Assembly (NCBI RefSeq): GCF_039962255.1
Contig: NZ_JAMPKY010000001.1
Coordinates: forward strand, 744,001 to 808,000
Source: Leptolyngbya subtilissima AS-A7
GTDB lineage: Bacteria; Cyanobacteriota; Cyanobacteriia; Phormidesmidales; Phormidesmidaceae
Length of the DNA stretch: 64,000 nucleotides
Reading direction: 5' to 3'
Shown here: positions 16,356-16,734 of the stretch, in pieces
Layout: every line of letters starts with the position of its first letter
Position numbering within the stretch: position 1 is the stretch's first letter
Notes under the pieces: model-generated
The model's input: only the letters and a program-made list of their open reading frames with translations
Database searches by the model: none
What the model was told of the DNA's origin: nothing
Program-made: the position numbers and the translations under genes

Positions 16356-16428
16356 GGGCGATTAGCTCAGTTGGTAGAGCGCCTGCCTTACAAGCAGGAT
16401 GTCACTGGTTCGAGTCCAGTATCGCCCA
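16356..16428 (+). tRNA. tRNA-Val, anticodon UAC
   Basis: The 73-nt cloverleaf folds cleanly: acceptor GGGCGAT/ATCGCCC with discriminator A, D-arm with AGTTGGTAGA, anticodon stem CCTGC/GCAGG around loop CTTACAA (anticodon TAC), and T-arm ACTGG-TTCGAGT-CCAGT. CCA is not encoded. The gene is intact although a transposon end begins ten bases beyond it, and it contains the target of that element's homing guide. Confidence 0.97.
16373..16393 (+). other. CAST homing target: PAM and protospacer inside tRNA-Val
   Basis: GGTA at 16373-16376 fits the GTN-type PAM reported for Cas12k. The next 17 nt, GAGCGCCTGCCTTACAA (16377-16393), equal the guide encoded at 16672-16688 on the minus strand. From the PAM edge to the first transposon base (16439) there are 62 nt, within the 60-66 nt reported for V-K insertion. 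Confidence 0.9.
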
Positions 16429-16438
16429 TATCTGTTGT

Positions 16439-16560
16439 TGTACGTTCGCACGCTAAATGTCGCGATTCGCAGATTGATGTCGTTTTTCGCACAATCGTGT
16501 CGTTTTGGCAGAAATTCTCTATCGAGATAGACAGAACTGCGCTTCGCAAATTAGATGTCG
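16439..16560. mobile_element. Transposon end of the V-K CAST with four TnsB-site-like repeats
   Basis: The end starts TGTACG at 16439. It then carries four copies of a TTCGCAnnnTnnATGTCG-like unit at 16445-16462, 16466-16482, 16486-16502 (GTGTCG variant) and 16543-16560. Start-to-start spacings are 21, 20 and 57 nt. Tn7-like ends hold such arrays of transposase binding sites, and V-K ends open with TGTAC. The five bases before it, GTTGT at 16434-16438, would be the target-site duplication. This is the end next to the CRISPR/cas12k half. No matching opposite end was found in the window. Confidence 0.88.
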
Positions 16561-16671
16561 CTAATTGCTCCTGAAGATGAATCCAATTTAGATTTGGATC
16601 CATCTCTTGAAAATAGATCGTTCAGCTATTTACCCATCCAAATTATGAACGAGTTGGCGTAGCCCTTATTG

Positions 16672-16734
16672 TTGTAAGGCAGGCGCTCCTTTCAACCCTC
16701 CTCTGTCTTAGATGGTCTTAACTTATGCGGCGAC
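16672..16734 (-). CRISPR. Delocalised homing guide: atypical repeat plus 17-nt tRNA-Val spacer
   Basis: Separated from the main array, this unit reads on the minus strand as a divergent repeat (16734-16689, ending GAGGAGGGTTGAAAG) followed by the spacer GAGCGCCTGCCTTACAA (16688-16672). The spacer is identical to 17 nt of tRNA-Val and mismatches from base 18. Short tRNA-matching guides beside the array are the known self-homing device of V-K CASTs. Its repeat keeps the 3' GGGTTGAAAG handle but otherwise differs from the array repeats, being about 46 nt up to its GTCGC edge. Confidence 0.92.

Follow-up and report, generated by a model that had tools for sequence, protein, structure and literature searches.

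The 64,000-nt stretch of Leptolyngbya subtilissima AS-A7 DNA analysed here (the window) carries an intact tRNA-Val (TAC) gene at 16356–16428 on the plus strand (ARAGORN; Rfam RF00005, 77.2 bits), the attachment gene of a V-K CAST whose left end lies just downstream. A 17-nt anchor spacer, the homing guide, on the minus strand at 16688–16672 matches exactly a protospacer within the tRNA gene (16377–16393, plus strand), and a GGTA PAM of the GTN type, computed beside the guide match, is found inside the gene directly 5′ of the target (16373–16376). The TGTACG terminus of the element begins at 16439, which leaves a spacing of 62 nt (16377–16438) from the PAM. The first-pass annotation had named the guide match, the PAM and the distance, had seen in their agreement the V-K homing rule, and had described the tRNA as spared; recounting left its coordinates unchanged, and the arrangement agrees with the architecture described in PMC9938897.

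The left end itself occupies 16439–16560 (plus strand) and comprises the terminus and four TnsB-type repeats (at 16445, 16466, 16486 and 16543), located with a motif drawn from the sequence itself, to which TnsB would presumably bind. Elements of relatives carry this type of repeat at either end, and the same end pattern is also present in genomes G010, G007, G016, G019 and G004. The guide is preceded by a truncated repeat end, GGAGGGTTGAAAG (13 nt, 16689–16701, minus strand), which corresponds to R* of PMC9938897, and stands apart from the CRISPR array at 16807–17067 (minus strand), with its four identical 37-nt repeats (16807, 16882, 16957 and 17031) and their spacers. Compared with plasmids, two array spacers gave no match and the other two weak partial matches only (E 0.4). 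A putative tracrRNA region (17250–17663, minus strand), its extent estimated from the sequence and from cross-locus comparison, gave no Rfam match at gathering thresholds; it contains, on the same strand, a hairpin, CCTCCGATCAAGGAGG (17292–17277), also recognized by comparison across loci, directly followed by an 8-nt anti-repeat, AACCCTCC (17276–17269), complementary to the anchor-repeat sequence GGAGGGTT of R*. The cas12k gene (17664–19646, minus strand, 660 aa) is identified by NF038191 (701.9 bits, cut-off 150), by the PADLOC Cas12k model and by Cas12k structures (E 3e-124).

Beyond cas12k extends a left cargo block (19647–63072) in which Pfam and PADLOC, applied to selected ORFs, recognized the C-terminal part of a restriction enzyme, a nitrile hydratase, a NERD/UvrD helicase and others. 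Beside cas12k, a 139-aa TnsB fragment (19880–20299, minus strand; PADLOC TnsB positions 383–498) belongs to another V-K lineage, with 51% identity to TnsB in G007 (L110) and 32% to the element's own TnsB, and is probably a relic. The block also holds two short tyrosine-recombinase ORFs (43462–44007 and 62171–62698), and its segment 57903–58859 shares 95% identity with the DNA that precedes tRNA-Val in G017. The transposase genes follow: tniQ (63073–63609, minus strand, 178 aa; PADLOC TniQ_V, 239 bits, and TniQ structures), tnsC (63637–64464, minus strand, in the window to 64000; PADLOC V-K model and structures) and, beyond the window, tnsB (64466–66352, 5′ end at 66352; PADLOC V-K model and structures). 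TnsB, TnsC and a small TniQ stand in V-K order and all match PADLOC V-K models, as does Cas12k, which bears out the V-K CAST identity first assigned from the letters; the reading frames of all four genes are open.

The end pattern, allowing up to 3 mismatches, occurs in this genome once forward (16439) and once reversed (107199). This puts the right end of the element 43 kb outside the window, at coordinate 107,199, and gives it a span of 90,761 bp (16439–107199; 90.8 kb). The 37 terminal bases of the left end recur identical and inverted at 107,163–107,199 (the end match as reported, 38 bases, includes one flank base), and more right-end repeats were seen by eye ahead of 107199. Terminal inverted repeats and TnsB-type sites, those of the right end judged by eye, are accordingly present at both ends, as in other V-K elements. 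A right end beside tnsB was considered and rejected, since the right ends of relatives and the end-pattern search place it at 107199; a listing of GTACA in the window, onward to window coordinate ~80 kb and in the sequence past tnsB contained none followed by GTTGT. Also rejected was a reading of the genes after tnsB (from L011:7492) as chromosomal flank, as these lie inside the element. The right cargo holds, at ~78–99 kb (L011:18311 to L124:8241), a contractile phage-tail-like injection cluster with sheath, baseplate J, a weak gp25-like protein, a spike OB domain and collar, bordered by an RGS-domain protein. Next, still within the element, come genes for NB-ARC, CHAT-TPR and two-partner secretion proteins; the chromosomal flank immediately past the right end encodes a NACHT-domain protein (107,531–109,849; L124:16531–18849).

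PMC9938897, in which 118 V-K systems were surveyed and AnCAST was studied, describes V-K CASTs with a 17-nt anchor spacer, a truncated repeat, a GTN PAM and 46–82 nt to the left end (one exception, 147). In that account the left end is the end beside the array and the tRNA, downstream of an inward-pointing tRNA, and tnsB-tnsC-tniQ open the gene order from the right end inward; a review (PMC11406308) gives the convention that the right end is the one upstream of the transposition genes. The present element shares with these systems the left end by an inward-pointing tRNA, the reverse array, the truncated repeat with a 17-nt anchor spacer, the GTN PAM, a spacing within 46–82 nt, cas12k, a putative tracrRNA region and the tnsB-tnsC-tniQ order. 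The end on the array and cas12k side, whose position at the tRNA had been flagged as deserving comparison, is thus the left end by convention and is expected there. Unlike the published systems, no small reverse gene of at least 80 aa appears beside cas12k in the ORF list, and tnsB and the right end, adjacent in those systems, are 41 kb apart. AnCAST measures 25 kb, compared with 90.8 kb here; a length of ~91 kb is large, yet within the known range for Tn7-like elements generally, for which a survey gives medians between 14 and 29 kb and 140 kb as the longest (PMC8649781). The core finding is therefore a correct reading of a known V-K mechanism with the published anchor-spacer layout, in a V-K CAST that is unusually large and unusual in its internal layout.

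All four proteins also match the Cas12k/ShCas12k, TnsB, TnsC and TniQ chains of ShCAST (Tn7747; structures such as 7n3o, 7pla, 7svw, 7m99 and 8rdu), in a comparison that covers the proteins; those of the present element have diverged. Closer is the CAST of the filamentous cyanobacterium CCT1 (L013), named as a CAST holder in PMC9938897, with a Cas12k 86% identical and the same tRNA-Val, guide and end family, in a comparison that covers a 14-kb contig without the right side. The genomes related by the Cas12k of the window are cyanobacteria, and G007 has further Cas12k matches besides its locus with the same guide. Three more Cas12k loci exist in the AS-A7 genome (G000), on contigs C14, C13 and C7, the C7 copy being broken; these further loci are situated at tRNA-His, tRNA-Pro and tRNA-Val(CAC). 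As judged by eye among 19 tRNA-Val(TAC) loci (L134–L152), left ends of different V-K lineages are recognizable in at least six (G000, G010, G007, G016, G008 and G002), with decayed-looking ends in others.

We consider it very likely, at a probability of roughly 0.93, that this V-K CAST (16439–107199) was guided by its own anchor crRNA to the downstream side of tRNA-Val. This reading draws on the sequence match, the PAM, the distance, the two ends, the open core genes and an unoccupied site in a related genome described below; on guide, PAM, spacing and V-K identity, it is also the reading that the first-pass annotation had favoured. By analogy with experimentally studied relatives, Cas12k together with the tracrRNA and a short anchor crRNA, consisting of the truncated repeat and the 17-nt guide, would bind the tRNA gene beside the GTA PAM; TniQ and TnsC would bridge to TnsB, and strand transfer by TnsB would join the left end 62 nt past the PAM, on the downstream side, so that the tRNA is spared. 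According to PMC11406308, an att-site crRNA accounts for almost every natural V-K insertion, and the use of att sites is dynamic.

That the 17-nt match might instead be a product of chance or of tRNA repeats had been raised at the outset; this rival reading, under which the tRNA neighbourhood is incidental, we regard as scarcely credible. Motifs common to tRNA genes make short matches frequent, and G015 (L146) shows, on the downstream side of the same tRNA gene, a 20-nt match without a repeat end or a left end. Against this, the expectation for the stretch is only ~1e-6, by hand arithmetic from ~57 tRNA 17-mers x 350 positions / 4^17. The 17-mer is the sole run of at least 9 nt shared between 16356–16439 and the minus strand of 16600–17110, and guide and target form the only inverted repeat reported by a search of 16350–17700. 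An identical 17-mer stands behind a repeat end and adjoins the same tRNA in G010, G007 and G008, and the identical guide is found at the same tRNA in the more distant genome G247 (L193). A survey of guide–tRNA matches into which 34 loci were entered (5 without a tRNA row; 30 tRNA rows, some places being listed twice) gave matches of at least 13 nt in 18 of the 30 rows, at tRNA-Val, His, Pro, Thr and Gly genes, with G015 as the one matching row that lacks both repeat end and left end. At many tRNAs the match sits in one and the same register after a repeat end, and PAM and distance are conserved too.

Further evidence for self-guided homing comes from the same site in related genomes. In G019, the left-flank gene of AS-A7 (91% over 1.4 kb) stands before tRNA-Val, the AS-A7 right flank (88% over 1.2 kb) lies no more than 285 bp behind it, and no TGTACG block is present between tRNA and right flank. 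Comparison with an empty site had been proposed as a check on the TGTACG block as a transposon end; the unoccupied G019 site, the terminal repeats and the inverted copy at 107,163–107,199 all favour an element. The AS-A7 region ~12.6–16.3 kb is also missing at the G019 site, so the neighbourhood of the tRNA varies on both sides. G017 was discarded as a candidate empty site: its contig stops 152 nt after the left-flank gene, and its tRNA-Val is on another contig. In G010, a second species, the same tRNA is occupied by an element of the same kind and layout, with the end pattern once forward and once reversed, 79.6 kb apart (up to 3 mismatches). Away from the junction, the flanking chromosome of the two genomes is ~89–98% identical on the left and 93–99% on the right (95.8% over the 10.4 kb of shared right flank compared), as against 86% for tRNA and left end, ~86–88% for cas12k and its surroundings, 82% for the right end and 76–98% for the transposase block in steps of ~500 bases. 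Only one ORF of the 44 + 56 in the two AS-A7 cargo blocks has a relative among the 72 of the G010 cargo (ORFs of at least 120 aa), and the junctions are offset by 3 nt on the left and 13 nt in the right flank. Such a pattern would fit separate arrivals at one site, or replacement of one element by another.

The flanks of the element carry a more complicated record. The bases adjoining its ends are GTTGT on the left and AACGA on the right, without a 5-bp target-site duplication, so that the GTTGT duplication predicted for the far end failed to appear; the G010 flanks are likewise unmatched (TCTGT and TCGTC). The absence of a duplication may be due to rearrangement. GTTGT does occur past the right end, at a distance of 9 nt, within an apparent decayed foreign left end: by eye, this stretch looks like the G008 left end, which would fit a former occupant of the site that was older and different. 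On contig C78 of G019 (L094 ~3619–3692), a right end is directly followed by a truncated left end, which indicates that tandem insertion does occur in the genus. Together with the mismatched flanks, the foreign left-end-like stretch and the TnsB relic at 19880–20299, such a tandem indicates that the site has probably been used repeatedly.

The position of the transposase operon bears on the same history. The gap from the 5′ end of tnsB (66352) to the right end (107199) amounts to 41 kb, at variance with the published rule that tnsB-tnsC-tniQ come first at that end; the corresponding gap is ~31.7 kb in G010 and ~300 nt in G019 and G004. A single TnsB-type site is found beside tnsB at 66407–66424. 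One explanation, to which we give a little less than an even chance, is that cargo was inserted between tnsB and an intact right end and pushed the operon inward, the 90.8 kb still forming one mobile element. Terminal sequence and TnsB-type repeats kept at both ends, open core genes and a layout common to two species argue for such a displacement; the flanks without duplication, and the lone site beside tnsB with its resemblance to a right-end remnant, speak against it. An explanation of equal weight, hence also just short of an even chance, combines two elements: a newer insertion would have brought the left end, cas12k, tnsBC and tniQ and had its own right end cut away immediately past 66424, and the remainder up to 107199, right end included, would be what is left of an older V-K element that stood in tandem with it at this tRNA. 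A right-end-like site beside tnsB, where G019 and G004 have a whole right end within ~300 nt, the mismatched flanking 5-mers, the natural tandem on C78 and the TnsB fragment of another lineage at 19880 would all fit a composite. When the four core proteins of the element (Cas12k, TnsB, TnsC and TniQ) served as tblastn queries, no second relic came up as far as 122 kb, a weak test given that the own TnsB query missed the fragment at 19880, and the Mu-transpos_C profile gave no further copy over the same distance; moreover, the same layout in G010 with almost wholly different cargo means that the rearrangement would be old or repeated. The inner placement of the transposase operon, the unmatched flanks and the remnant resembling a foreign left end suggest several hits on this site, and rearrangement or recombination in the making of the present element.

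The complementarity between anchor repeat and anti-repeat noted above was followed across 52 loci, 40 of them picked by hand from 83 listed Cas12k matches and 12 others; 34 were kept, and 18 without an anchor by the criterion used were set aside. In 23 of the 34 loci, with 11 different 8-mers, a perfect complement of the anchor 8-mer is present between cas12k and array of the same locus, and in the other 11 it is lacking; a hairpin of the same kind precedes the complement in all 23 contexts, as seen by eye. Array-repeat 8-mers show such a complement in 0 of 28 loci, and anchor 8-mers of other loci, used as a control, match in 14 of 646 tests. Where array and anchor 8-mers differ (27 loci), only the anchor matches in 20, neither in 7 and only the array in none. 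The test was framed after the pattern had been noticed; the loci are related, so that these counts carry no probability. An earlier, looser complementarity test (53 loci, 31 with an anchor and 25 of these with an array) was less one-sided, the anchor repeat being more complementary than the array repeat in 18 of 25, equal in 5 and lower in 2. In the AS-A7 locus, the duplex energy of array repeat and tracrRNA region (best -25.3) was not better than the mean minimum of 100 shuffles (-28.9). It is tempting to speculate, at what we judge an even chance, that the truncated anchor repeat is the true partner of the tracrRNA, the first 8 of its 13 nt co-varying with the anti-repeat, and that the array repeats have drifted. 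Excerpts of PMC9938897, PMC11656645 and PMC12719977 make no mention of this pairing; the 2021 primary papers stand outside the comparison, and it may already be known.

The locus thus offers a readable natural case of RNA-guided homing, with the site occupied in two species and unoccupied in a third. A V-K element of ~91 kb with its transposase genes placed in the middle bears on the carrying capacity of such systems. If the anchor repeat is indeed the partner of the tracrRNA, the homing crRNA would gain a private, strong pairing in place of the lost 5′ half of the repeat, and the separation of homing from acquired guides would become testable through eight bases.
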